Below, one piece after another: positions 40,896 to 55,794 of a stretch of 64,000 nt of DNA. The position numbers were made by a program, and so were the translations under genes. Origin of the DNA: Synechococcus sp. CBW1004 (GTDB lineage Bacteria; Cyanobacteriota; Cyanobacteriia; PCC-6307; Cyanobiaceae); assembly GCF_015840715.1 (NCBI RefSeq), contig NZ_CP060397.1, positions 310,001-374,000 on the forward strand. The letters run 5' to 3'. The notes below the pieces were generated by a model. It was not told where the DNA came from and searched no databases. It saw nothing but the letters and a program-made list of their open reading frames with translations. Numbering within the stretch: the first letter of the stretch is position 1; each line of letters begins with the position of its first letter.

Positions 40896-42275
40896 TCAGA
40901 CGCCCCGCAGCACCGCGCTCAGCATCGAGAGGTTGATCAGCACAATCACGCTGGCGCAGATCCAGCCCGCGGCCTGCAGCCAGAGCGGTGCTTTCAGATC
41001 GCCCATCAGGCCCTGGCGGCCGCAGAACCACACCAGCGGGATCACCGCGAAGGGCAACTGCAGCGAAAGCACCACCTGGCTCAGCACCAGCAGATTCGTG
41101 GTGGCTCGCTCGCCGAACAGGATCACCGTGGCCATCGCCGGGATCAGGGCGAGGCCGCGGGTGAGCAGCCGCCGCTTCCAGTCCGGCAGCCGGATCTGCA
41201 GGAACCCCTCCATCACGATCTGGCCGGCCATGGTGGCGGTGAGCGTCGAGCTCTGTCCCGCCGCCAGCAGGGCCACCCCGAACAGCACGCTGGCGAGAGA
41301 GGTGCCCAGCATCGGCGTCAGCAGCCGGTAGGCCTCGCTCAGGTCCGTCACCGGCTGCGGTAGCCGTCCGTAGAAGCTGCCGGCGGCGAGCACCAGGATC
41401 GAGACATTGATCAGAAAGGCAAGGCTGAGGGCGATCAGGGTGTCCCAGGTGCTGAAAGCCAGGGCCCTGCGCCTCGTCCCCTGGCCCTCCGCCCAGAGGC
41501 GGGTCTGCACCAGCGAGGAATGGAGGTAGAGGTTGTGGGGCATCACCGTGGCACCGAGAATGCCGGCCGCCAGAAACAGCTGCTGCCCGTCCCTAAGGCT
41601 GGCGGCCTGGGGAAGGAAGCCCTGGCCCACCTGGCCCCAGTTGGGCTGCAGCAAGAACATTTCCACCGCGAAGCAACCCCCGACCAGGGCGACCAGGGCG
41701 ATCACCAGGGCCTCCAGCCGCCGGATCCCGAAGCGCTGCAGTGCCAGCAGCAACAGGGTGTCGGCGGCCGTGAGGCCCACCCCCCAGGGCAATGGAAGAC
41801 CGAAGAGCAGCTGCAGGGCAATGGCGCTGCCTACCAGCTCGGCCAGGTCGCAGGCAATGATCGCCACTTCGGCCAGCAGCCAGAGGGGGATCCGCCAGAA
41901 CCGCGGCAGCAGACGGCTGCAGGCCTGGGCCAAGTCCAGCCTTGTGGCGATACCCAACCGGCAGCAGAGCGACTGGAGCACCATCGCCATCAGGCTGGAG
42001 AGCCCGATCACCCAGAGCAGGCGGTACCCGAACTGGGAGCCGGCCGCCAGATCCGTGGCCCAATTGCCCGGATCCATGTAGCCCACGGCCACCAGATAGC
42101 CGGGGCCCAGCACCCGCATGAAGGTGCGCAGCATGCCCAGGCCGGCAGGCACCTCCACCGTCTGGGCATTGGTGCGCGCGGCCATGTCCAGCGGTGCATC
42201 AGGCATGAAGCGACGCCAGCGGAGTTGGAGGGTAAGGCGAGGGTGGCTGCGATCCTGCTGGGGCATCGCCGGCAT
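40896..42275 (-). CDS. mntH: Nramp-family divalent metal transporter
   Basis: A 459-residue proton-coupled importer of Mn(II)/Fe(II) in the inner membrane. The TM1 metal motif DPGN is present (GYMDPGNWATDL), and TM6 has MPHNLYLHS; both contribute the metal ligands. About eleven membrane helices can be traced. The first ATG is used; one at residue 24 is also possible. It lies 32 bases after the VKOR gene on the same strand, so the two are likely one operon behind the CadR-type operator at 43260-43290. An importer of Mn under a Cd/Pb/Zn-type regulator is unusual. Confidence 0.93.
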   Translation of the reverse strand: MPAMPQQDRSHPRLTLQLRWRRFMPDAPLDMAARTNAQTVEVPAGLGMLRTFMRVLGPGYLVAVGYMDPGNWATDLAAGSQFGYRLLWVIGLSSLMAMVLQSLCCRLGIATRLDLAQACSRLLPRFWRIPLWLLAEVAIIACDLAELVGSAIALQLLFGLPLPWGVGLTAADTLLLLALQRFGIRRLEALVIALVALVGGCFAVEMFLLQPNWGQVGQGFLPQAASLRDGQQLFLAAGILGATVMPHNLYLHSSLVQTRLWAEGQGTRRRALAFSTWDTLIALSLAFLINVSILVLAAGSFYGRLPQPVTDLSEAYRLLTPMLGTSLASVLFGVALLAAGQSSTLTATMAGQIVMEGFLQIRLPDWKRRLLTRGLALIPAMATVILFGERATTNLLVLSQVVLSLQLPFAVIPLVWFCGRQGLMGDLKAPLWLQAAGWICASVIVLINLSMLSAVLRGV

Positions 42276-42307
42276 GAGCCCACCCTGGGGAAGGGATCAC
42301 CGCTAGC

Positions 42308-43231
42308 TCAGAAGTCGCGAGGACCTGTGTAGCCACTGAGATCAGCGAGAGTTTTCAGCGGCTTGACGCCCGAATCCACGACGCCCTTGATCTGCCAGCT
42401 GGGATAGCCCTGAACCCCCTGCTGCTTGCACAGCTGCGCCTGGCTGTTGGCGCCGTCTTCGGCGCATTCGATCACCTGGAGCTTGGCGGCGGCCTCCTTG
42501 CCGAAGGCCTCCTTCTGGTCATGGCAGTGGGGGCACCAGTACGCCGTGAACACCCGGGCGCCGACGCTGCTCAGATGCTCCGCCAGGGCAATCTTGGCCG
42601 GCGAACTGGCGCTGATGACAGCTGGAGCCGCCCGTCCGCTTTGGGCGACAGGCTGGTCCGCCGATGCTGCCCAGCCCAGCCCCAGCAGACCAACAAGAAG
42701 GACTGTCATCACTCCGCGAAAGATCAGTTGGCTGCGGTCGATCCAGCCACCTCCAACAAGACTCAACAGGAACAGCGCGAGGCTGAGGGCGGCTGAGACC
42801 ACACAGAAGGTGCAGAAGGCCTTGATCTCGAAGACCAGGAGCCCCATCAGCACCAAACTGAAGACGGCCATGCCGCAGCTGACGAGGAACAGAGCCCAGC
42901 GATTGCCCTCCGAGGCTGGGGCGCGCAGACCTCCTCGCAGCAACGGCATCAGGGCCAGCAGGAGCACCGTGGCGTAGGCCAGGAACCCAAAGAGAGAAAG
43001 TGGCTGGCCCAGCAGCGTGCCCCAGGCGCTGCCGAGCACCTTGTCGCAGCCATCGCTACCGCCCGGACAGGACAGGCTGCCGATCCAACCCCAGCGCTTG
43101 GCGGTGATCGAGCCGGTATCGATCATGCCGATCGTGGCGAGCACGGCCATGGTGAGGCGCACCCAGGGCCGGCCTGGCTCCTGGCCGACCCGACGGCTGG
43201 AGAGAGGCTTGGTTCGCGTAGCGCTGCTCAC
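42308..43231 (-). CDS. Vitamin K epoxide reductase-thioredoxin fusion
   Basis: An integral membrane disulfide-forming enzyme, the cyanobacterial VKOR homolog fused to its thioredoxin-like partner (307 residues). The VKOR part has the loop cysteines CPGGSDGC and the active-site CxxC (AFCTFCVVS) near the fourth helix; the C-terminal domain has CPHC (AYWCPHCHDQ) as the thioredoxin motif. It introduces disulfides in periplasmic or lumenal proteins. The frame reaches an ATG at 43261, but that codon would overlap the -10 region of the MerR-type promoter, so I prefer the GTG at 43231. It is followed by mntH. Confidence 0.9.
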   Translation of the reverse strand: MSSATRTKPLSSRRVGQEPGRPWVRLTMAVLATIGMIDTGSITAKRWGWIGSLSCPGGSDGCDKVLGSAWGTLLGQPLSLFGFLAYATVLLLALMPLLRGGLRAPASEGNRWALFLVSCGMAVFSLVLMGLLVFEIKAFCTFCVVSAALSLALFLLSLVGGGWIDRSQLIFRGVMTVLLVGLLGLGWAASADQPVAQSGRAAPAVISASSPAKIALAEHLSSVGARVFTAYWCPHCHDQKEAFGKEAAAKLQVIECAEDGANSQAQLCKQQGVQGYPSWQIKGVVDSGVKPLKTLADLSGYTGPRDF

Positions 43232-43259
43232 AGGGGGAGAGAACGGCTGAGATACGGCC

Positions 43260-43290
43260 ATTGAAAAGCCTGAAGTGGCTTCAGGGTCAA
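43260..43290 (-). promoter_or_regulatory. CadR-type promoter/operator for VKOR-mntH
   Basis: On the minus strand TTGACC (43290-43285) is followed by a 19-base spacer with the dyad CTGAAG..CTTCAGG and then TTCAAT. The long spacer with a centred dyad is the signature of MerR-family promoters. It matches the sequence before cadA almost base for base in the left half. The regulator gene lies divergent, 62 bases away. Confidence 0.75.
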
Positions 43291-43352
43291 GAGCCTAGCG
43301 TTGCGCCAGGGAGGCTTGTCCGCCCGACTTACCTACCCAAGGGGATGAATCC

Positions 43353-43769
43353 ATGCAGATTGGCGAGTTGGCACGGTCTACCGGAGTGACGATCGAAACC
43401 ATCCGCTATTACGAACGCGAGCACTTGTTGCCGGTGCCGCAGCGCACGGATGGCAACTATCGCCTCTATTCTCCGCAGCATGTGGAGCAGTTGCGCTTCA
43501 TCCGCTACTGCCGCAGCCTGGACATGAGCCTGGAGGAGGTCCGCATCCTGATCGGGGTGCTCGACACACCGTCCGGAAGCTGTCTGACGGTGAATGCCCT
43601 GCTGGACGAGAAGATCGCCGAGGTCGATGCCCGCGTGAATGAGTTGCACAAACTCCAGGATCAGCTACGGCAGCTCAGAGGGCTTTGTCAGCAACCGGAT
43701 GAGGTGAAGACCTGCGGCATCCTCATGGAATTGAACCGTTCGGCACGAATCGACAAGGCTCAGATCTGA
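43353..43769 (+). CDS. cadR: MerR-family regulator, CadR/PbrR-like
   Basis: A 138-residue metal sensor and transcription activator. The winged helix (MQIGELARSTGVTIETIRYYE, then GNYRLYSPQHVEQLRFI) is typical of MerR. The dimer helix is followed by Cys in PSGSCLTVN, and by GLCQQPDEVKTCGIL. Three cysteines at these places match the Cd/Pb-binding set of CadR-type regulators (about positions 77, 112, 119). The C-terminus lacks the His-rich tail of some CadR proteins. It is convergent with cadA (16 bases between stops) and divergent from VKOR, with operators for both nearby. Confidence 0.88.
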   Translation: MQIGELARSTGVTIETIRYYEREHLLPVPQRTDGNYRLYSPQHVEQLRFIRYCRSLDMSLEEVRILIGVLDTPSGSCLTVNALLDEKIAEVDARVNELHKLQDQLRQLRGLCQQPDEVKTCGILMELNRSARIDKAQI

Positions 43770-43785
43770 TCATTTCCGACCAGGC

Positions 43786-45999
43786 TCAGCCCCTGATATT
43801 GCCAAGCGTGGGAGTGCGGAGCAGCCGCAGGCCATTGGCGATCACGATCAAGCTGGTGCCCATGTCCGCGAAGACCGCCATCCACATCGTGGCGTTCCCG
43901 GCCACGGTTAGCACCAGAAACAGGGCCTTGATTCCCAGCGCCAGGCCAATGTTCTGGCGCAGGATGGAGAAGGTGCGGCGCGAGAGGGCGATCGTTTCCG
44001 GTACACGCATCAGATCGTCGTTCATGATCACCACATCGGCCGCTTCGATGGCGATTTGGGTGCCCGCGGCCCCCATCGCAAAACCGATGTCAGCCTGGGC
44101 CAGGGCCGGCGCATCGTTGATGCCATCGCCGACCATGGCCGTGAATCCGTAGCGGGCCTGCAGAGCGGCCACCGCATCGAGCTTGTCCTGGGGCAACAGG
44201 TTGCTTTTCACCTGCTCGATGCCGGCCAGGGCCGCAATCGCGCCGGCGGTGGCTGCGTTGTCACCCGTGAGCATCACCGGTTTGACGCCCAGGGCTCTCA
44301 GGGCCGCCATGGCGGCCGCGGAGCTGGGCCGAACGGTGTCGGCAACAGCGATCAAGGCGAGTACGCCGCTGTCATCCGCGAGCAGGCTGAGCGAGCGACC
44401 TTGGCGCTCGTGGACCTGCATCGATGCTTCCAGTGAGCTGGAGCAGAGCCCCAGCTCCTCGATCCAGCGGTGGTTGGCCAGCATCAGCGGCCGCCCCGCA
44501 ATCACGCCGCGCACCCCCCTTCCGGGGAGGGCCTCGAAGGCCTCCACGGCCAGCCGCTCGCCATCAAGGCCTGCGGCCATGGCCCGCGACACGGGATGGT
44601 CGGAGCGCTCCGCCAGGCTGCTAGCCCACTGTTTGAGAACGCCAGCGTCTGCCGTTTCTTGCTGAGGGGAAAAGGCCACCAGCTGGGGCTGGCCCAGGGT
44701 GATCGTGCCGGTCTTGTCGAGCGCCAGCACCTTGATCTTGCGGGCCTCCTCGATGTAGAGGCCGCCTTTGATGATGATGCCGCGACGGGCGGCGGTGGCC
44801 AGGCCGCTCACCACCGTGACCGGTGTGGCGATCACCAGCGCGCAGGGGCAGGCGATCACCAGCAGCACCAGTGCCTTGTAGATGGCCTGCAGGGGGGTGA
44901 ACCCCAGCAAGGGCGGCGCCAGCAGGGCAACAGCCAGTGCCACCACGAACACCGCCGGGGTGTAGCGGGCCGCGAAGCGATCGACGAAGCGCTGGATCGG
45001 AGCACGGGAGGCCTGGGCTTCCTCCACGGCCTGGATGATGCGCGCCAGGGTGCTCAGCGAGGCAGGTGCCGTCACCTGGATCTCCAGGGCGCCGCCCTGG
45101 TTGATCGTGCCCGCAAACACTTCATCACCAGGGCCTTTGTCGACCGGCAGGCTTTCGCCGGTGATCGGGGCCTGGTTGATCGCACTCTCGCCGGAAAGCA
45201 CCGTGCCATCAAGCGGCAGGCGCTCGCCCGGGCGGACACGCACCACATCTCCGATGGCCACAGCACTGGCGGAGACGCGTTGCCAGCGGCCATCGCTCTG
45301 GCGGATCTCCGCCTCGTCGGGAGCCAGGGCCATCAGGCTGGTGATCGCCTGGCGGGCCCGCTGCACCGCCCGCGCTTCGATCGCCTCGGCCACGGCATAG
45401 AGCGCCATCACCATGGCGGCTTCCGGGAAGCGGCCGATCAGGAAGGCGCCCGTGACCGCCACGCTCATCAGCGCATTGATGTTGAGCCGGCCCTGGCGCA
45501 GGGCCGCGAGGCCCTTGCGAAACACGGAGAAGCCCGCCAGGGCGATGGCGGCGATGGCGATCCCGATCTCAAGCAGCTCATGACCCGGGAAGGCGGGAAC
45601 GACCAGATGCAGCAGCTCCGCTGTGATCGCCAGCGCCAGGGAGCCCGCCAGGCGGAGCCGTTCAAGGCGCCGTTCGGCGCGGGTCTGGGCGGCGGACGGC
45701 CGCTGATCGGGGCTGATCGGCTCCGGGGTGAATCCCAGCCGGCGGATTGCGGCAAGGGCGGAGTTGAGCGCTGCTGCTTCGGCATCGATCGCCAGAACGC
45801 GCTCGGCCAGCAGGAACCGCAGGCTGCGGATGCCGTCAACACCTGAGAGGGCATGCCGGATCTCGCCTTCCTCCGTGGCGCAATCCATCGCGCTGATCCG
45901 AAACAGCGCTTCTCTGCCGCTTGCCGGCTCCGGCTGCGGCGCCGTGGTGGCTCCGGCCTTCTGCCCGCTGGTTCTACTGCTGCAGCAATGTTCCGCCAT
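43786..45999 (-). CDS. cadA: Zn/Cd/Pb-transporting P1B-type ATPase
   Basis: A 737-residue heavy-metal efflux ATPase in the inner membrane. The N-terminal metal-binding domain has DCATEE in place of the copper-type CxxC, a sign of the Zn/Cd group. Membrane helices carry the CPC motif (VIACPCALVIATPV). The phosphorylation motif DKTGT, the nucleotide-domain His in SDHPVSRA, and GDGINDAPAL follow. It begins MAEHCCSSRTSG; the paired Cys may also bind metal. A CadR-type operator ends 20 bases before the start. It should export Cd, Zn or Pb. Confidence 0.95.
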   Translation of the reverse strand: MAEHCCSSRTSGQKAGATTAPQPEPASGREALFRISAMDCATEEGEIRHALSGVDGIRSLRFLLAERVLAIDAEAAALNSALAAIRRLGFTPEPISPDQRPSAAQTRAERRLERLRLAGSLALAITAELLHLVVPAFPGHELLEIGIAIAAIALAGFSVFRKGLAALRQGRLNINALMSVAVTGAFLIGRFPEAAMVMALYAVAEAIEARAVQRARQAITSLMALAPDEAEIRQSDGRWQRVSASAVAIGDVVRVRPGERLPLDGTVLSGESAINQAPITGESLPVDKGPGDEVFAGTINQGGALEIQVTAPASLSTLARIIQAVEEAQASRAPIQRFVDRFAARYTPAVFVVALAVALLAPPLLGFTPLQAIYKALVLLVIACPCALVIATPVTVVSGLATAARRGIIIKGGLYIEEARKIKVLALDKTGTITLGQPQLVAFSPQQETADAGVLKQWASSLAERSDHPVSRAMAAGLDGERLAVEAFEALPGRGVRGVIAGRPLMLANHRWIEELGLCSSSLEASMQVHERQGRSLSLLADDSGVLALIAVADTVRPSSAAAMAALRALGVKPVMLTGDNAATAGAIAALAGIEQVKSNLLPQDKLDAVAALQARYGFTAMVGDGINDAPALAQADIGFAMGAAGTQIAIEAADVVIMNDDLMRVPETIALSRRTFSILRQNIGLALGIKALFLVLTVAGNATMWMAVFADMGTSLIVIANGLRLLRTPTLGNIRG

Positions 46000-46019
46000 G
46001 GTCCTGTCATCCAGACCCC

Positions 46020-46570: not shown

Positions 46571-48055
46571 CTACTCGATCTGCAGCACCCCCATCAGCCC
46601 CAGATCCTCGTGGTCGAGGTTGTGACAGTGATAGACGGTGCGCCCCGGGAAATCCCTGAATGTGACGCGGATCCGCACCTCTTCGCCCGCTTTCACCAGC
46701 ACGGTGTCTTTCCAGCGTCGCTGAGATTCAGGACGACCCGCGCGGCTGATCACCTGGAAGGGATTGACGTGCAAGTGGAAGGGGTGATCCATCACGTCGT
46801 CGTTGACGATCAGCCAGTCTTCCGTGCTCCCGAGGGCAACCCGAGTGTCGATGCGATCGGGTTCGAAGGCCTGGCCATTGATCTGAAATCCCATGCCCAT
46901 GCCGCCCATGGCCATGCCGCCTCCGCCCATGGCGCCCATGTCGTGCTTCATCCCACCCATGCCCGTTCCCATGGCATGGGCCATGACGAAACGGCGGGTG
47001 CGCTCCGGCTTCGGCAGGGCCGGCACAGGGATCAGGGCCTTCGGCAGAGGTAGTGGTGGCACCGTTCCGGCGTAGCTGAGGGTGGCCAGGGTCCGGGGAG
47101 CGTCCTCAGCGGCGGCCATCCCCATGTGGCCACTGCGCTGGTAGGGCAGGTTGAGCAGCCTGTAGCTGCCTGGGGTCTGGTTGCCTTGCACCAGCACATC
47201 GGCCCGCTCGCCGGGGGCCAGAAGCAGCTCATCGAGAGGCTCTGGGGTGGCGATCGCGCCGCCATCGGTGGCGATCAGAACCAGTGAGTGGCCCTCGAGG
47301 GCCAGGCGGTACATCCGTGCATTGGAGGCATTGAGCAGGCGCAGCCGCAGCAGGCCGCCGCTGGGAATTGCCAGGCCTGGGTTGATCGCCCCGTTGACCG
47401 TCAGCAGGGGGCCTTCCCGGCCGAGCATGCGCCCCACGCCCATGGCGGCTTCCTGACCGGAGGCGCTGGCGAAATCCTTGAGCACCAGCACGGTTTCTTT
47501 GGCGGCCGCCACTTCCGGAATCCTGTCCAGATCGCCGCGTACCACCAGGGCGCTGCTGAGGCCGCCAAACACCTGATCGGCCGAGAGTCCGTGCTGGTGG
47601 GGGTGGACGTAGAACAGGCCGGCCGGGTGGTCTTTGGCGAGCGTGAACTCATAGTCGAAGGAGCCACCGGGCGGCACGCTCAAGAAGACGTTGTCGGCCG
47701 TGCCGGTGGGGGGGATGTGGAGCCCGTGGAAGTGGAGATTGGTGGGTTGCTTGAGTTCATTGCGCAGTCGCAGCCGCACCCGATCGCCGGCGTTCACCTC
47801 CAGCAGCGGACCGGGTGAGCGGCCGTTGTAGGTGAGCAGCTCGGCGGGGCCACCCGGAAGGCTTCCCCGCGTGGCCTGGGCCACCAGCTCCAGATCGGCC
47901 ACGCCGCCACGGGAGGCCAGCCGCGCCGCACCGGCCGGCTGGGCCCGGGCGGCGGAGCGCTGCAGCCGGTCCCAGAGAAGTGGGCCGACCACGGCCGTGC
48001 CGAGGCCGGCGAGCCCAAGTCCGAGTACCTGCCGTCGCCGAAGTGGAGTGGTCAT
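46571..48055 (-). CDS. Multicopper oxidase, CueO-like, Tat-exported
   Basis: A 494-residue periplasmic copper enzyme, probably oxidising Cu(I) to Cu(II) or a phenolic substrate. The Tat signal RRRQVLGLG is at the start. All four copper-ligand blocks are present: HFHGLH, YVHPHQHG, HPFHLHVNP and HCHNLDHEDLGLM, where the last Met is the axial ligand of the type 1 site. A Met/Gly/His-rich stretch (about residues 375-405: GMGGMKHDMGAMGG) resembles the methionine-rich loop of CueO that binds Cu(I). It lies 10 bases after the DUF411 gene, behind a CueR-type promoter. Confidence 0.95.
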   Translation of the reverse strand: MTTPLRRRQVLGLGLAGLGTAVVGPLLWDRLQRSAARAQPAGAARLASRGGVADLELVAQATRGSLPGGPAELLTYNGRSPGPLLEVNAGDRVRLRLRNELKQPTNLHFHGLHIPPTGTADNVFLSVPPGGSFDYEFTLAKDHPAGLFYVHPHQHGLSADQVFGGLSSALVVRGDLDRIPEVAAAKETVLVLKDFASASGQEAAMGVGRMLGREGPLLTVNGAINPGLAIPSGGLLRLRLLNASNARMYRLALEGHSLVLIATDGGAIATPEPLDELLLAPGERADVLVQGNQTPGSYRLLNLPYQRSGHMGMAAAEDAPRTLATLSYAGTVPPLPLPKALIPVPALPKPERTRRFVMAHAMGTGMGGMKHDMGAMGGGGMAMGGMGMGFQINGQAFEPDRIDTRVALGSTEDWLIVNDDVMDHPFHLHVNPFQVISRAGRPESQRRWKDTVLVKAGEEVRIRVTFRDFPGRTVYHCHNLDHEDLGLMGVLQIE

Positions 48056-48065
48056 GGTTGGGTTC

Positions 48066-48563
48066 TCATTTGGCGTGCTGGGAGAAGCTGCTGATGGCTC
48101 CGGTCCGCGTGAAGGCCATCACCGTGAACGCCTCTTTGCCGTAGGCCGATTCCATGCCTGGGGAGCCCAGGGGCATCCCCGGAAGGGCGAGGCCCGCCAG
48201 GGGCGGCCGTTTCTGCAGCAGCCGTTTCACATCAGCAGCAGGGACGTGACCCTCAAGGGCAAAACCGGCCACTTCGGCGGTGTGGCACGAGGCCAGGCGG
48301 GCGGGGACCCCCAGGCGTCGCTTGATCACGGCGACATCGGCCACCACGACATCGCGCACGGCGAAGCCATTGGCGCGCATGTGCTGCACCCAGCCCTTGC
48401 AGCACCCGCAGCTGGCGGATCGATAGGAGGTGACCGGCATCAGGGCTGGAGCACTGGCGCGTGCCGCGAGCGACCCGCCCCCTGAGACAACGGCAGCAAC
48501 AGCGCCGACCCCCAGCAGCAGGTCCAGGAACCGCGAATGACCGCGGCTTGATGTCGAGTTCAT
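48066..48563 (-). CDS. DUF411 metal-binding protein
   Basis: A 165-residue exported or membrane-anchored protein. The N-terminal hydrophobic stretch (LLLGVGAVAAVVSGGGSLAA) is followed by YRSASCGCCKGWVQHMRANGF, the CxxC-containing start of DUF411, and HTAEVAGFALEGHVPAADVKRLL, the conserved second half. DUF411 proteins usually lie with copper oxidases and exporters. It is the first gene of the operon with the multicopper oxidase. A CueR-type operator lies 25 bases upstream. Confidence 0.9.
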   Translation of the reverse strand: MNSTSSRGHSRFLDLLLGVGAVAAVVSGGGSLAARASAPALMPVTSYRSASCGCCKGWVQHMRANGFAVRDVVVADVAVIKRRLGVPARLASCHTAEVAGFALEGHVPAADVKRLLQKRPPLAGLALPGMPLGSPGMESAYGKEAFTVMAFTRTGAISSFSQHAK

Positions 48564-48587: not shown

Positions 48588-48619
48588 ACCGTAGAGCCTC
48601 CACTCAGGTGGAGAGTCAA
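48588..48619 (-). promoter_or_regulatory. CueR-type promoter for DUF411-MCO operon
   Basis: TTGACT (48619-48614), a 20-base spacer with CTCC/GGAGGC arms around ACCTGAGT, and TACGGT (48593-48588) on the minus strand. The over-long spacer with an inner dyad is the MerR/CueR layout. Two near-identical elements occur at 48680-48711 and 54506-54475. Confidence 0.8.
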
Positions 48620-48679: not shown

Positions 48680-48711
48680 TTGACTCTCCTGTCAAGGGGA
48701 GACCATACCGT
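48680..48711 (+). promoter_or_regulatory. CueR-type promoter for DUF305-copA operon
   Basis: TTGACT (48680-48685), a 20-base spacer starting CTCCTGTCAAGGGGAGACCA, and TACCGT (48706-48711). Arms CTCC and GGAG match the other two sites. The first gene begins at 48734, so the leader is only about 16 bases. It is back to back with the DUF411 promoter. Confidence 0.82.
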
Positions 48712-48733: not shown

Positions 48734-49471
48734 ATGTACCCATTCCGCTTCACCGCCACCCTGATCGGTCTGGCCTCTGCCCTCACCGTTGCGGCTCCTG
48801 CCCTGGCCCAGATGCCCGGTGGCATGAATCACGAAGGGCACCAGGGCATGCCAGGGATGATGAACATGCCTGGGATGTCTGCTCCGGCCGGATCCGCCCC
48901 GGCCCATGCCGCCCACGCCCACGACGTGGGCCCGGCCGGTGCCACCTACGACCTGCGCTTCATCGACGGCATGGTGCAGCACCACACCGGCGCCCTTCGG
49001 ATGAGCGAATTCGTCTTCAACATCGGCCAGCCCGGCGTGGGAGCGCTCGGCAAAACGATCTGGCGCGACCAGGCCAACGAGATCCGGGCCATGGGCCTCT
49101 GGCGCAAGGCCTGGTACCCCCAGGCACCCGTTTACCCCGTGTCCCTGGCCTCCGGAGGCGATCCCAACAGCCTCAGCGGCCTCACCCGCATGAGCCAGGC
49201 CCAGATCGATGGCATGCGGATGATGGGCGAACTCCCCACCAAGGACAACCGGGTGGTGTGGTTCTTGGAGGGCATGCTCGAGCACCACGGCGGGGCGCTG
49301 ATGATGGCCCACGACGCCCTGGCCAAGAGCACCAACCCCACGATCCGACGCTTCGCGCGAGGGGTGATCGTGGCCCAGCGCGCCGAGATCATCGAACTGC
49401 GCAGGATGCTGGCGGTGGAGGGCTTGCGCAAGCCGGAGTACAGCAAATACGACGCTCTTTTTCGTCTTTGA
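48734..49471 (+). CDS. DUF305 exported protein, copper-associated
   Basis: A 245-residue protein with a Sec signal (MYPFRFTATLIGLASALTVAAPALA) and a Met/His-rich mature start (QMPGGMNHEGHQGMPGMMNMPGM). Two DUF305-like helical blocks follow: FIDGMVQHHTGALRMSEF and FLEGMLEHHGGALMMAHDAL, each with the M..HH.GA pattern. The proteins are ferritin-like helical bundles of unknown activity, often found with copper genes. The long upstream frame is discarded because homology and the signal peptide start at this ATG. The Cu ATPase gene follows after 52 bases. Confidence 0.88.
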   Translation: MYPFRFTATLIGLASALTVAAPALAQMPGGMNHEGHQGMPGMMNMPGMSAPAGSAPAHAAHAHDVGPAGATYDLRFIDGMVQHHTGALRMSEFVFNIGQPGVGALGKTIWRDQANEIRAMGLWRKAWYPQAPVYPVSLASGGDPNSLSGLTRMSQAQIDGMRMMGELPTKDNRVVWFLEGMLEHHGGALMMAHDALAKSTNPTIRRFARGVIVAQRAEIIELRRMLAVEGLRKPEYSKYDALFRL

Positions 49472-49523: not shown

Positions 49524-51725
49524 ATGATGAACGCGGCGACAATCACCCAGACCCCTGGCCATTCCCACGGGAAGCCCGGAAGCCACGGCCCGCCGCCCAC
49601 CGGCGGCGGCAAGGGAATGGCCAAGGATCCGATCTGCGGCATGGTGGTTCCCAAGGCCACAGCCCTCAGCGCCCAGCGCGGCGGCCGCGACTACTACTTC
49701 TGCAGCCAGACCTGCCTGCAGACCTTCCAGAATCCCGACCGCGAATTGCGCGTCATGCGCCGCCGGGTGGGCTTCGTGATCGGCGGGGTGCTGGCGCTGG
49801 CGCTGTTCCGGGCCGGAGCCTTCATCGCCCTGGCGGCCGGCATCAGCCTGGTGTCCTGGGTGCCGCTGCCGGCACTGCCCTGGATGAGCTGGGGGAAGTG
49901 GCTGTTCGTGCTTGCCACTCCGGTGCAGTTCATCGGTGGCTGGTCGTTCTACACCGGCGCCTGGGCGGCCCTCAAGCGCCGCGCCCTCAACATGGATGTG
50001 CTGATCGCCCTGGGCACCTCCGTCGCCTACTTCTACAGCGTGGTGGTGGTCTTCGCGCCCACCTGGCTTCCGGTTGGCGTCAATGAACGGGACGTCTATT
50101 TCGAAGTCTCGGCGGTGGTGATCGCCTTCGTGCTGATGGGCAAATACATGGAGGAGATCATCAAGAAACGCTCCTCTGCCGCCGTGCGCAAGTTGCTCGA
50201 TCTTCAGCCCGCCACGGCCACGGTGATCCGCGACGGCATGGAGATGACCGTGCCCGCCGATGCCATCGACACCGGCGAGACGGTGCTGGTGCGCCCGGGC
50301 GAGAAGATCCCCGCCGATGGGGTGGTGCTGGAGGGCAGCTCCTCGGTGGACGAATCCTTGCTCACCGGTGAATCCCTGCCAGTGGCCAAACAGGCCGGTG
50401 CCGAACTCATCGGCGGCACCGTGAATGGCAATGGCCTGCTCCGTTTTCAGGCCAGCCGGGTGGGATCCGACACCGCCCTGGCCCAGATCGTTCGCATCGT
50501 GGAGGAGGCCCAGGCCAGCACGGCCAGCGTGCAGCGCCTGGCCGATCAGGTCACGGGCTGGTTTGTTCCAGCCGCGGTGCTGATCGCCTTCGCGGCGTTT
50601 GCCCTCTGGACCCTGGCGGGCCAGTTCAGCAGTGGTCTGCTGGCCTTCATCGCCGTGCTGGTGATTTCCTGCCCCTGTGCCCTGGGCATCGCCACCCCAG
50701 CGGCCCTGATGGTGGGGGTGGGCAAGGGCGCGGAGCAGGGCATCCTGATCCGCAGCGGCGAGGTGCTGGAGCGGGCTGAGAAGCTCACCACCGTGGTCTT
50801 CGACAAGACAGGCACGCTCACCTTGGGCAAGCCGGTGCTCACCGATCTGGAGCCCCTGGCAAGCCAGTCGGAGCAGGAGGTGCTTCAGCTCGCAGGGTCC
50901 CTGGAGCACGGCTCCGAACATCCCCTGGCAGCGGCAATTGCCGAGGCCGTTGCAGCGCGCCATCTGGAGCTGCTGCCGCTGAAGCAGTTTGAGGCCCAGG
51001 TGGGCGAGGGCATCACCGCCAAAGAGGGCGGGGACGTCGTCTGGTTCGGCAACCGTTCCCTGGCAAGCCGCTTCCTGCCTCGGCTTCCCGAGCCTGTGGA
51101 AGGCCAGCTCGCTGGGCTCGAGGCCCAGGGGAAAACGGCCATGTTGCTGGGGCGCGCCGATCAGATCCTGGGGGTGATCGCCGTCGCTGACACGGTCAGG
51201 CCCGAGGCCGAGCAGGCCGTGGCCCTGCTGCGGCGCCGTGGGGTGCGGGTGATCATGCTCAGCGGCGACAACCGCACCACCGCAGAGGCGATTGCCGCCC
51301 AGGTGGGGATCACCGAGGTGATCGCCGAGGTCCGGCCTGCCGACAAGGCCGGAACGATCAAGTCCCTGCAGTTGGATGGGCAGAACGTGGCCATGGTGGG
51401 TGATGGCGTCAATGACGCCCCGGCCCTGGCCACGGCCAACATCGGCATCGCCATCGGCTCGGGATCGGATGTGGCCAAGGAAGCCGGTGACATCATCTTG
51501 ATGGGCAACGACGTGCGGCTGGTCGTGACCGCCATCGGCCTGTCGCGGGCCACCATGCGCAAGATCCGCCAGAACCTCTTCTGGGCCTTCATCTACAACG
51601 GGATCGGCATCCCGATTGCTGCCCTCGGCTGGCTGAACCCGATGATCGCCGGGGCGGCCATGGCCCTGAGTTCGCTCTCGGTGATCGTCAACTCGTCGCT
51701 GTTGCGTCGCTACCGGGCCGCTTGA
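49524..51725 (+). CDS. copA: Copper-exporting P1B-type ATPase with YHS domain
   Basis: A 733-residue Cu(I) efflux ATPase. After a His/Gly/Pro-rich start there is a YHS/TRASH-like domain ([11 protein letters not shown] to [12 protein letters not shown]) in place of the usual HMA domain. Eight membrane helices carry CPC ([14 protein letters not shown]), YNGIGIP and [13 protein letters not shown], which fit Cu(I) type P1B-1 transport sites. DKTGTLT, the SEHPLA His and [10 protein letters not shown] complete the ATPase. A good Shine-Dalgarno (AGGAG) lies five bases before the ATG. It is the second gene of the DUF305-led operon. Confidence 0.94.
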
Positions 51726-52850: not shown

Positions 52851-53345
52851 ATGAATAGCCTGGTGAAGCAAAGGCTTGTGGTCAAGAAAAGTGCACGAAT
52901 TCTCGCTGCACCAGAAACAAATCTGTTTCTCTTTGCCTTTCTGCTCAACTTCGTTTACGAGGTTTGGCAGTCTCCATTTTACGAGTTCTACGCAAGTCCA
53001 TCCCTGGGCGACAAAGTTATTGACTTGACCCACTGCGCCTTTGGCGATGGGGTCATCATTCTCTTCAGCAGTTGGACTGTGAGCGCGTTGATGCGTTCGC
53101 GGTACTGGGTGCTGACCCCAACCTGGAAGCTGACGCTCCTGTTTACCGGTATCGGCCTTCTGATCACGCTTGCGATCGAAACCTATCGAGTTAATGTTTC
53201 CAAGGCCTACGGAGTGCCGATGCTGGCAGTGCCCCTACTAGGCATGAGTGCACTTGCCGTCATTCAATGGATCGTCTTGCCTGTCATCATCCTCTACATG
53301 GCTCGCCGGCACATGTTGGGATATTCGGGGCAAAACTTTCACTAA
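52851..53345 (+). CDS. Polytopic membrane protein, unknown function
   Basis: A 164-residue protein with four hydrophobic segments (LFLFAFLLNFVYEVWQSPFY, VIILFSSWTVSALM, LTLLFTGIGLLITLAIE, VIQWIVLPVIILYMA). I do not recognise a family. Its base composition is lower in GC than the copper genes on either side, and so is the 190-base gap before it, which suggests a later arrival. It has no clear cotranscribed neighbour. Confidence 0.7.
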   Translation: MNSLVKQRLVVKKSARILAAPETNLFLFAFLLNFVYEVWQSPFYEFYASPSLGDKVIDLTHCAFGDGVIILFSSWTVSALMRSRYWVLTPTWKLTLLFTGIGLLITLAIETYRVNVSKAYGVPMLAVPLLGMSALAVIQWIVLPVIILYMARRHMLGYSGQNFH

Positions 53346-53634
53346 CCCGTGGCATCATTCGCGGCTCCTGCTTCTTCTTTTGATACTCAATGTGGCATTG
53401 CCTTTGATGGCATAGATGATGCGTGCTCCCCATCAGTCGTTCAGTGTCTACGAAAGCTGTTGGCATCACTTCATTTCCATCGACCCTGTGGCCTGATTAC
53501 CAGAAGATCATCCGCCGCATTCCTGGCGGAGATGAGTTCAAACCGAGTCCATGCATTTCGAAGTGGTTGTGGAGGTTGAGCTTTTTGTTGTCGTTGCGTG
53601 TCAGGCTCAGAATCCTCATTAATACCCTCCTCCT
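53346..53634. other. Gap between convergent genes
   Basis: About 290 bases of moderate GC content between the membrane protein and the end of the PepSY-like gene. No coding frame, RNA or transposase remnant is recognised. A perfect 20-bp palindrome lies at its right border. Confidence 0.5.
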
Positions 53635-53654
53635 GAGCGGCCTGATCAGGCCGC
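53635..53654 (-). terminator. Perfect 20-bp palindrome over the stop codon
   Basis: AGCGGCCTGATCAGGCCGCT is self-complementary along its whole length and contains the stop codon of the PepSY-like gene. It could form a loop-poor hairpin in the transcript and stop RNA polymerase or protect the 3' end, but no T-run follows. It might equally be a protein-binding site. Confidence 0.4.
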
Positions 53655-53933
53655 TGGCGGCGGTTGCTTCATCCCCCTGCGGCGGCCCAGCAGCAGTCCC
53701 ATGCCGGAGCCGATCACGAACAGGGTGAGCAGCGCCAGGACCGAGGAGTACCAGGGCTGCAGATTGAGGAGGCCGAAGTTGCCCGTGTGCAGCTTCATCA
53801 GCCAGAAGGCCTCGATTCCCTGGGCCGATAGGGCGCCGTACAGGGAGCCGGAGAGCGCCGTGAGCAGCAGTGGCAGGGCTGCCAGGGGCACGAGGCTGCG
53901 GTGCACCCGGCGCATCAGGTGATGGTGCCTCAC
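53646..53933 (-). CDS. PepSY-associated-like small membrane protein
   Basis: A 95-residue protein with a His-rich start (MRHHHLMRRVHRSL), a helix (VPLAALPLLLTALSGSLYGAL), a loop with FWLMKLHTGNFG, and a second helix (LALLTLFVIGSGMGLLL). The layout resembles PepSY-domain membrane proteins in shortened form. The GTG start overlaps the stop of the DUF3721 gene (GTGA), so it is the third gene of the CueR-type operon read leftwards from 54475. Confidence 0.75.
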   Translation of the reverse strand: MRHHHLMRRVHRSLVPLAALPLLLTALSGSLYGALSAQGIEAFWLMKLHTGNFGLLNLQPWYSSVLALLTLFVIGSGMGLLLGRRRGMKQPPPAA

Positions 53934-54184
53934 TCCTTATCCATTGCCTTGTGCAGATCCTGCATGTTGGCGCAGGGCATCCAGAGGGAGCCCATCGCAA
54001 AAGCCCCCTTGCACTTGAGTTCGGCGGCGCGTTTCTCCGCCTCCTGCTTGGTCTTGAACATGCCCTTCATGTGCGCCGCAGCGGGTGCGCTGACGAGCAG
54101 CGGAGCGAAGGTCGCCGCTACGAGGGCCGCCAGCAGAGCCCAACGGTTGGTCTGCTGGAAGGGGCCGGTGGAGTGCTGGGTCAT
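53930..54184 (-). CDS. DUF3721 exported protein (copy 2)
   Basis: An 84-residue protein: a signal peptide (WALLAALVAATFAPLLVSAPAAAH) and the DUF3721 unit MFKTKQEAEKRAAELKCKGA followed by FAMGSLWMPC. Two Cys separated by about 12 residues and a Met suggest metal binding. The upstream copy shares the same unit, so the pair arose by duplication. The ATG at 54184 starts the signal peptide; the longer frame is not used. Confidence 0.85.
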   Translation of the reverse strand: MTQHSTGPFQQTNRWALLAALVAATFAPLLVSAPAAAHMKGMFKTKQEAEKRAAELKCKGAFAMGSLWMPCANMQDLHKAMDKE

Positions 54185-54230
54185 TGAGATTGCGAGGGGA
54201 TGGTCAGTGACAGAAAAGGGACTGCTGGTG

Positions 54231-54443
54231 TCACTTCTCCTTGGAGACGGCTTTCTCATAGACATCGAAGTTCTGGCAGGGCATCCAGTCCTTGCCCATT
54301 GCAAAGGCGCCGCTGCACTTGAGTTCCTTGGCTCGCTTTTCCGCAGCGGCCTTGCTCGGGAACATGTCGTTGGCCTGAGCGCGGGCGGCGCCGGGTGCCA
54401 GGGCAACGCCTGCCGAGAAGAGGAGAGCCAGAGCGAAGGGGTT
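54231..54443 (-). CDS. DUF3721 exported protein (copy 1)
   Basis: A 70-residue protein beginning with a signal peptide (PFALALLFSAGVALAPGAARA) from a GTG start, then MFPSKAAAEKRAKELKCSGA and FAMGKDWMPCQNF. The Cys-x12-Cys layout matches copy 2. The start is inferred from the signal peptide; a longer frame runs through the operator and into the MerR gene on the other strand. The promoter with the CueR-type site lies about 32 bases upstream. Confidence 0.82.
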   Translation of the reverse strand, partial: NPFALALLFSAGVALAPGAARAQANDMFPSKAAAEKRAKELKCSGAFAMGKDWMPCQNFDVYEKAVSKEK

Positions 54444-54474
54444 CACGGAATACCAGGAGGAAGAGGTGGACACC

Positions 54475-54506
54475 AGCTTAGAGTCTCCCCATAGCAGGAG
54501 AGTCAA
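54475..54506 (-). promoter_or_regulatory. CueR-type promoter for DUF3721 operon
   Basis: TTGACT (54506-54501), a 20-base spacer beginning CTCCTGCTATGGGGAGACTC, and TAAGCT (54480-54475) on the minus strand. It shows the same arms and spacing as the two sites near 48.6 kb. It lies directly upstream of the divergent MerR gene, whose own transcription it may also control. Confidence 0.8.
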
Positions 54507-54510
54507 GCCC

Positions 54511-54927
54511 ATGGCAGCTGTTGGCATCAAGACCGGCATGAAGATCGGGGCGCTGGCCGGCCGCAGCGGCTTGCCGGTCAAGACCCTGCGCTACTACGAA
54601 GACTTGGGTCTGCTGCCGGCGATCGGCCGCAGCGAAGGCGGGTACCGCCTCTTCGCCGAGGAGAGCCTGCAACGCCTGGAGTTCATCCGCCGGCTCAAGA
54701 CCCTCGGGCTCAGCCTGGAGGAGATCCAGGACTGCCTGGCGGTGCACGATGCCGGTGAGCTGCCCTGCGGCGACATCCAGGTCCAGCTGGGGCGCCAGAT
54801 CGAGCGGATCGATGGCCAGATCAAGGAGCTGCGGCAGCTCCGCAAGGAACTGCAGGGCCTGCTGGCGGGCTGGCAGAGCGATCCAGCCAAGGATGACGCG
54901 GTGATCTGCCCCAATCTTCACGTCTGA
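54511..54927 (+). CDS. MerR-family regulator, probable copper sensor (CueR-like)
   Basis: A 138-residue MerR protein. The DNA-binding part is KIGALAGRSGLPVKTLRYYE, then GYRLFAEESLQRLEFIRRLK. The metal loop differs from E. coli CueR: one Cys in ELPCGDIQ and one near the end in AVICPNLHV. This spacing suits the group of MerR proteins found in high-GC copper loci. The start ATG at 54511 follows the operator by five bases. All three CueR-type sites of the window surround copper genes, so I take this to be their regulator; that link is inference. Confidence 0.85.
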   Translation: MAAVGIKTGMKIGALAGRSGLPVKTLRYYEDLGLLPAIGRSEGGYRLFAEESLQRLEFIRRLKTLGLSLEEIQDCLAVHDAGELPCGDIQVQLGRQIERIDGQIKELRQLRKELQGLLAGWQSDPAKDDAVICPNLHV

Positions 54928-55059
54928 AGGCTGATCGTGACGTTCGGCCCATACGCAGCGAATGGGCACACCGATTCGATGAAGCCATGACCCGAATCCG
55001 TGTCCGACTCCCTGCTAAGTGCCCATGCTGAAGAAAGGCACAAGCAAGGGAGAGAACTG

Positions 55060-55794
55060 ATGGGCCATCACCATGCCGCGTTGGACCAGAAACGTTCGGC
55101 GGCGCTCAGGCTCGCGGCCGCTGCAGGGCTGGGAGCGCTCGTTCTGTCGCTGGAGGCTCCAGCGCGCTCGGTGCCGCCCCAGGTGGTGGCCCAAGCCGGA
55201 AGCGGGATGGGAAGGGGACTAAGCGGTCCGGGGCGGATGGCGGCCCAGTCGATGGATCAGCACTTCATCGTGATGATGATTCCTCACCATGACGGGGCGA
55301 TCGCCATGGCAGATCTTGCCCTCTCCCGCGCGCGCAGGCCCGAGATCAAGGAGCTGGCCCGCAGCATCAAGGCCAGCCAGAGCCAGGAGAACGCCCAGAT
55401 GCGGACCTGGTACCGGCAGTGGTTTGGCGGCGATGTTCCCAGCTGGACGACCGGAGGAGCCATGGGTATGGGCGGCATGGGGATGGGCATGGGTGGTGGC
55501 ATGAAGATGGGCGGCATGGGCATGGGGATGGGCGGCATGGGCATGGGGATGGGCGGCATGGGCATGGGGATGGGCACAAGCCTGGCCGCCCTGAAGAATG
55601 CCGCCGACTTCGATCGTGCCTTCATCGAGCAGATGATTCCGCACCACCGCATGGGCGTGATGATGGCCTCGATGGCCCAATCCAACAGCCAGCATCCGCA
55701 GCTGCGGGAGCTGCAGCAGACCATGGTTCGGGTGCAGAGCCAGGAGATCGAACAGATGGCGCAGTGGTATCGCAGCTGGTACGGAACGTCCTGA
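55060..55794 (+). CDS. DUF305 exported protein with Met/Gly repeat
   Basis: A 244-residue protein. The N-terminal part has a His cluster (MGHHHAAL) and a hydrophobic signal (LRLAAAAGLGALVLSLEAP). Two DUF305 blocks (VMMIPHHDGAIAMADLAL and EQMIPHHRMGVMMASMA) flank a linker of about 40 residues made of MGM and GGM units (residues about 136-172). Met-rich stretches of this kind bind Cu(I) in other proteins. The chosen ATG has AGGGAGAG upstream. The stop overlaps the DUF302 start (TGATG). Confidence 0.88.
   Translation: MGHHHAALDQKRSAALRLAAAAGLGALVLSLEAPARSVPPQVVAQAGSGMGRGLSGPGRMAAQSMDQHFIVMMIPHHDGAIAMADLALSRARRPEIKELARSIKASQSQENAQMRTWYRQWFGGDVPSWTTGGAMGMGGMGMGMGGGMKMGGMGMGMGGMGMGMGGMGMGMGTSLAALKNAADFDRAFIEQMIPHHRMGVMMASMAQSNSQHPQLRELQQTMVRVQSQEIEQMAQWYRSWYGTS
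55510..55572 (+). repeat. Three exact 21-bp tandem repeats
   Basis: Three identical 21-base units, each encoding GGMGMGM, lie inside the DUF305 gene and are flanked by diverged copies. They build the methionine-rich linker. Exact copies suggest recent slippage, so linker length may vary between strains. Confidence 0.9.

Follow-up and report, generated by a model that had tools for sequence, protein, structure and literature searches.

What two tandem genes for very small exported proteins, together with a third gene for a small membrane protein, contribute to a set of copper genes is the question raised by this locus of Synechococcus sp. CBW1004. The window (the whole stretch of 64,000 nucleotides that was analysed) encodes the two exported proteins, A and B, followed by the membrane protein c1 (Table 1). 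All three genes lie on the minus strand and form one operon; the strand is an addition to the initial annotation, which had described tandem DUF3721 genes with a GTGA-coupled partner. This arrangement was found as described: A and B both score above the Pfam gathering score for DUF3721 (PF12518), and the stop codon of B shares GTGA with the GTG start codon of c1. GTG 54446 was taken as the start of gene A because the homologue in L038 begins at the equivalent codon; GTG 54473 is an in-frame alternative. Signal-peptidase cuts were assigned by the (-3,-1) rule for AxA-type sites and are predictions, which place the mature start at ARA↓QANDMF in A and at AAA↓HMKGMF in B. A has no N-terminal His, reads GAF-AMG and keeps the C..C pair, and B carries LH close to its C-terminus. 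A scan of 53300-55100 for sigma-70 promoters and terminators found none, and a search of phage and plasmid collections with B gave no match. DUF3721 and PF12518 are named in none of the literature that was searched.

Table 1. Position, strand and supporting evidence of the A-B-c1 operon, its operator copies and the neighbouring copper genes in the window.
Feature	Position	Strand	Evidence
Multicopper oxidase	46571-48055	minus	PF07731, PF07732, PF00394
DUF411 (CopG-like) exported protein	48066-48563	minus	PF04214 86.4 bits
Operator copy 2, before DUF411-multicopper oxidase genes	48592-48619	minus	pattern search
Operator copy 3, before DUF305-CopA genes	48680-48707	plus	pattern search
DUF305 protein (CopM-like)	48734-49471	plus	PF03713 98.7 bits; CopM 76.5 (cut-off 90); start ATG 48734
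CopA-type copper P-type ATPase	49524-51725	plus	TIGR01511 583.9 bits (cut-off 397)
c1, 95 aa, two-helix PepSY_TM-like membrane protein	53646-53933	minus	GTGA overlap with B; invariant His11 and His49
DUF3721 protein B, 84 aa, class II type	53930-54184	minus	PF12518 52.4 bits (cut-off 27)
DUF3721 protein A, 71 aa	54231-54446	minus	PF12518 44.1 bits (cut-off 27)
MerR-type operator/promoter before gene A	54479-54506	minus	pattern search
MerR-family metal-type regulator, divergent	54511-54927	plus	Pfam MerR_1, MerR-DNA-bind
Second DUF305 protein, Met-rich repeat (CopM-like)	55060-55794	plus	PF03713 145 bits; CopM 89.1 (cut-off 90)

The unit, which had been described as copper-responsive, lies in a copper cluster, and its promoter site is common to two further copper operons. 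The site before gene A, TTGACTCTCC-N8-GGAGACTCTA, has the MerR-family operator architecture, with a dyad between TTGAC and a downstream TA-containing element. Written as TTGACTCTCC-N8-GGAGRCYMTA, the pattern matched three times in the window and not once in shuffled sequences, and a search of the whole 3.67-Mb genome with up to two mismatches returned the same three operators and no others (reversed control, 0). As the pattern was derived from these same three sites, the informative part is its absence elsewhere in the genome and its recurrence in other genomes; it was found in 23 of 42 genomes of the genus (reversed control, 1 of 42) and upstream of A in 10 of 13 A-B tandems. The copA and cueO promoters of Escherichia coli show the same architecture with the dyad after TTGAC, but the dyad arms are CCTTCC/GGAAGG in the E. 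coli CueR regulon and CTCTCC/GGAGR in the window. The E. coli regulon likewise has a copper ATPase and a multicopper oxidase among its targets, whereas DUF3721 and c1 are extra members of the window set.

The site had been labelled CueR-type, which was not established and which we rejected for the regulator on account of its score and its ligand residues. Against the CueR model TIGR02044 the divergently encoded protein reached 80.5 bits (cut-off 147.4), it was slightly closer to CadR/PbrR (88.5 bits, cut-off 151.45) and ZntR (87.2 bits), and none of the NCBIfam equivalogs scored above its own cut-off. In CueR, the ligand set includes Ser at position 77 and two Cys of the loop. In an alignment with E. 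coli CueR and ZntR, the window regulator has a Cys where CueR has the Ser, as in ZntR, and of the loop Cys it has the second only, so that part of the CueR ligand set is missing. Two regulators encoded beside c1 relatives in other cyanobacteria, L249 (with an oxidase gene adjacent) and L242, have the LPC..D motif of the window regulator and are 45-47% identical to it.

The neighbours under the common operator include proteins of the CopG (DUF411) and CopM (DUF305) kinds, to which DUF3721 and c1 are unrelated in sequence. CopG contains a Cys-bridged copper cluster, and Cu(I) oxidation has been proposed for this kind of protein (PMC7558416). By eye, genes for an NRAMP-like transporter, a VKOR-like protein and a second heavy-metal P-type ATPase adjoin the copper cluster at 40896-46000, which makes the window a wider metal region.

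Among 386 cyanobacterial genomes, DUF3721 was present in 56, all belonging to the window's own family (56 of 57 genomes, compared with 0 of 329 elsewhere). This family comprises the picocyanobacteria (Prochlorococcus, Synechococcus, Cyanobium), and the carriers include Prochlorococcus-like genomes of 1.6-1.7 Mb. From 114 stretches plus the window and L005 we obtained 151 DUF3721 ORFs and classed 150, leaving out one that ends in WMAC (L105): 54 carry an MGV-repeat part at the N-terminus (called 'B type', a label unrelated to gene B), 52 belong to class I and 44 to class II. The mature class II proteins are about 47 residues long and have the motif H-x-[KR]-G ... C-x-x-x-H-x-N ... WMPC-x-x-E-x-x-LH. 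In 43 of 44, the predicted signal-peptidase cut falls directly before the first His, the sole exception being an ORF that begins inside (L061). This His is as invariant in the class as the two Cys, C21 and C34. In a second set, made up of class II relatives from named genomes (the best 80 of 188) and from IMG/VR, a His stands at the predicted mature N-terminus in 80 of 80 (75 by pattern, five by eye).

Class I and MGV-repeat genes (L005 6153-6847; L047, L077, L083 and others) are often in tandem and adjoin genes for Fur-family regulators, Znu-type ABC transporters and ArsP_1-type permeases. Class I proteins retain C..GAH.MG..WMPC..H, and many have a His-rich tail end. From these features, class I and MGV-repeat proteins look like zinc-side relatives of the window pair.

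Class II genes, by contrast with the other types, are tied to copper genes and to c1. A gene for DUF411, DUF305, a multicopper oxidase or CopA lies within 4.5 kb at 25 of 44 class II loci and at 0 of 71 loci of other types (Fisher, 1e-13), a p value that is overstated because the loci are related; the tree, the Fisher tests and the counts all take related loci as independent. With the window type left out, the figure is 22 of 41 (Fisher, 2e-12). Conversely, Fur genes were found within this distance at 0 of 44 class II loci compared with 29 of 71 others, and ZnuB at 0 of 44 compared with 17 of 71. No copper gene was found within 4.5 kb at 19 of the 44 class II loci. A copper role for DUF3721 as a whole was rejected as too broad, since two of its three branches adjoin Fur/Znu genes.

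A class II gene is followed by c1 at 42 of 44 loci (37 assigned by clustering, L038 as a member of that cluster, and L125, L145, L040 and the window from HMM matches or inspection of the sequence), which bears out the proposal that the three genes of the window are one unit. At the two others, c1 has an internal deletion (L061) or there is no adjacent c1 (L122). Both genes are present at 78 of 81 loci of the second set, drawn from the best 80 of 188 genome relatives and IMG/VR, and DUF411 at 56 of these 81. By hand count, class II occurs in at least 38 of the 57 family genomes, a lower bound because four further DUF3721 copies, in G221, G286, G272 and G209, lie outside the fetched stretches, and a strong c1 (90 bits or more) in 38 of these 38. 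The only other strong c1 in the family, in G312, stands beside a decayed unit. The gene order is often MauE - DUF411 - class II - c1 in Prochlorococcus-like loci; in Synechococcus-like loci it is often MerR - DUF305 - class II - c1 with an oxidase further away. Position and the shared site together make the copper linkage of class II and c1 strong.

G302 has five copies of the operator, one of them directly upstream of a gene for a glutaredoxin-MauE fusion (Pfam; L038, 1872-2615), and the MauE-only form occurs in class II operons of the Prochlorococcus type. At the end of an IMG/VR contig (L230, 2868-5476), genes for DUF305, class II DUF3721 and c1 follow one another; a neighbouring 443-aa ORF may be a recombinase, and the contig may represent a mobile island or host DNA.

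The window pair groups with class II. In a tree of the 40-residue domain, which has weak resolution, A and B form one clade (support 0.98) with class II as nearest relatives. Assignment of A to class I, suggested by its tail without LH, was rejected on this placement beside B, and A is better regarded as a class II duplicate. B has His1, Cys21, Cys34 and His41 and is followed by c1, as in class II, but has Phe in place of His25; A lacks His1, His25 and His41. Both carry GAF where class II has GxH, with loss of the central His: every A and B copy (29 of 29, counting a remnant) has Phe at position 25, and the 41 class II ORFs outside the window type have His there. The A-B tandem is not due to chance, as A-B-c1 was present in 10 of the 20 loci taken from the window's genus, besides the window, L038 and L040. 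The other ten have a canonical class II-c1 pair (six), a B-like gene with c1 (two), a deleted A/B remnant with c1 (one) and c1 alone (one). L040, from a genome placed in another genus (G340), matches the window at 99.1-99.7% over 6.2 kb, so that recent transfer or a misplaced contig is possible. Decayed A-B-c1 units were seen in L257 (4718-5265, G312) and L333 (1696-2210), with A and B collapsed into one remnant and c1 kept.

c1 had been called PepSY-like, a description that fits its family and, by the Pfam cut-off, not this protein on its own. The window c1 matched PepSY_TM (PF03929) weakly, at 15.3 bits with a gathering score of 28.8. PepSY_TM matches at E ≤ 0.1 were obtained for 20 of 22 aligned c1 relatives (best, 1.4e-5), and one fused relative exceeded the cut-off (46.5 compared with 28.8 bits). 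All 72 c1 sequences compared carry both His11 and His49. In hhalign comparisons with eight full-length cyanobacterial PepSY_TM proteins, the HTG half of c1 aligned with the last PepSY_TM helix (E 1.4e-4, probability 52%) and the HR half with helices 1 and 3 (E 1.1e-3 and 7.5e-3), and both His of c1 fell on PepSY_TM His, at modest probabilities of 52%, 21% and 5%. The extracytoplasmic PepSY domain between the helices is absent from the 95-aa c1. An AlphaFold model has helices at 3-37, 41-50 and 59-87 (pLDDT 77, weak pTM of 0.36); with this model, Foldseek gave one non-significant match (E 8.3) and the VIA structure comparison none. Neither the class II profile nor the c1 profile matched any PDB sequence at E ≤ 10. 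An FtsX relationship of c1 was rejected (19.4 bits against a cut-off of 25.5, seen in 2 of 22 relatives). Judged from these alignments, c1 is probably best described as a minimal PepSY_TM-like unit with two invariant His.

In our estimate there is about an even chance that A, B and c1 form a copper-induced system in which periplasmic copper binding is coupled to electron transfer in the membrane. The divergent gene and the shared site suggest that the MerR-family regulator twists the dyad at 54506-54479 and the two other copies, whereby three operons, DUF411-oxidase, DUF305-CopA and A-B-c1, would be switched on together. B is predicted to be exported and cut to leave His as residue 1, and its putative copper ligands are His1, Cys21, Cys34 and His41, with Met27 in the window version. 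A, the duplicate with the Cys/Met set only, would hold Cu(I). Metal binding by both is likely from their conserved residues. c1 would correspond to the two-helix repeat of PepSY_TM proteins minus the PepSY domain; in a dimer, the His11 residues would pair at the inner face and the His49 residues at the outer face, and haem could be held at these pairs, as in FoxB. It is homology that suggests a haem or reductase role, and c1 could also work without haem. c1 may pass electrons to copper on B and thereby determine whether the oxidase, the DUF411 protein and the binding proteins meet it as Cu(I) or as Cu(II). Because the DUF411 protein of the regulon is of the CopG kind, with its proposed Cu(I) oxidation, electrons could flow either way.

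More broadly, class II and c1 may constitute an undescribed two-part periplasmic copper redox device, consisting of a 47-residue copper protein with an N-terminal His and a two-helix haem protein that would be the smallest PepSY_TM unit. DUF3721 would then be a metal-specialised picocyanobacterial family with ligand residues that distinguish its zinc-side and copper-side branches, and the window pair, with His25 changed to Phe, a soft-ligand copper version. We put this reading forward tentatively. CopC-type copper proteins are exported and have an N-terminal His, and the CopC gene adjoins that of the membrane protein CopD. Class II is predicted to resemble them in both respects, but has 47 residues and two Cys and no match among PDB sequences. 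The CopC type has a cupredoxin-like beta fold; the 47-aa AlphaFold model of B has a predicted helix-hairpin-helix shape, with which the best Z was 2.2 in VIA and none of 67 Foldseek matches had E ≤ 0.001 (best, 0.93). FoxB and CrpH, which are PepSY_TM proteins, have transmembrane-helix-end His that hhalign places in register with the two invariant His of c1. Haem reductases of this type hold two haems between their helices, which number at least four, and include large PepSY domains, whereas c1 has two helices, no PepSY domain and, unlike them, a small His-first partner. CrpH has been proposed to be a periplasmic copper reductase that requires its haem-type His (PMC13038864).

An unlikely explanation is that A and B are a plain copper sink or chaperone, buffering periplasmic copper or handing it over to the oxidase or the DUF305 proteins, with c1 a mere anchor or helper that has neither a haem nor a redox role. 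The same gene neighbourhood and the same content of Cys, Met and His agree with it, the DUF305 and DUF411 proteins of such kind are themselves small periplasmic binders, and the structural comparisons, with a weak c1 model and no significant Foldseek match, lend no support to haem in c1. However, two His at opposite helix ends, invariant in 72 of 72 sequences and aligned with PepSY_TM His, would be superfluous in an anchor.

Copper supply rather than defence, in which class II and c1 would ready copper for plastocyanin or cytochrome oxidase and the window copy would have been recruited into a resistance island, seems rather improbable to us. Most Prochlorococcus-like loci do have the pair with neither CopA nor oxidase genes, usually with DUF411 and MauE, and CrpH has been tied to copper starvation and oxidase function (PMC13038864). 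On the other hand, neighbouring genes for DUF411/CopG and multicopper oxidase usually serve resistance (PMC7558416), and the window unit has its operator in common with CopA. We regard as very improbable a thiol-redox function, in which the Cys pair of DUF3721 would form a disulphide serving DUF411/CopG or the glutaredoxin-MauE protein and copper binding would be incidental. C21 and C34 are invariant and genes for MauE or glutaredoxin-MauE adjoin the unit, as this function would have it, but the invariant N-terminal His, His41 and c1 are left unexplained, and the window proteins change His25 to Phe while the Cys are kept.

The unit matters beyond the window, as DUF3721 occurs in nearly all sampled picocyanobacterial genomes, relatives of the ocean's most abundant photosynthesisers among them. 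The lock-step of class II, c1 and copper genes points to undescribed copper handling outside the cell membrane. With one branch tied to copper and others to zinc-side genes, testable predictions with named residues can be made for an uncharacterised family. Should c1 hold haem, a reductase superfamily recently tied to copper would gain a domain-free member with two helices. According to PMC3598940, Prochlorococcus is more sensitive to copper than Synechococcus, so its copper proteins matter for marine ecology.

Relatives of c1 are more widespread than DUF3721 and were found in 125 of 386 genomes. We read 33 c1-type loci from outside the family (40 were fetched, the other seven belonging to the family), sampled by score and not by chance. 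A small exported neighbour with His after an A-type site, mostly reading HxGH, was present at eight (L244, L249, L251, L252, L254, L255, L256 and L277), and 25 had no His-first partner. Copper genes accompanied seven of the eight loci with a His-first neighbour compared with one of 25 without (Fisher, p 1.4e-5); here L242 was counted as copper, having only a MerR gene and a P-type ATPase, which need not be copper-specific. The His-first pattern missed L251, L255 and L277, which were added by eye, and its matches at L245, L248, L261 and L272 were discarded, those at L245 and L248 and one at L272 because they overlap longer ORFs, the others as unremarkable short ORFs.

Chains of about 190 aa that join two c1 units, both with an HR and an H-x-G, were seen in L259-L263, L269 and L278, with no copper genes in the fetched stretch; tandem-fused relatives are expected if c1 is a dimer. 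A second c1 paralogue of the MMAWLKHVRQWHRW type (L264-L268) has a constant picocyanobacterial neighbourhood far from copper genes.
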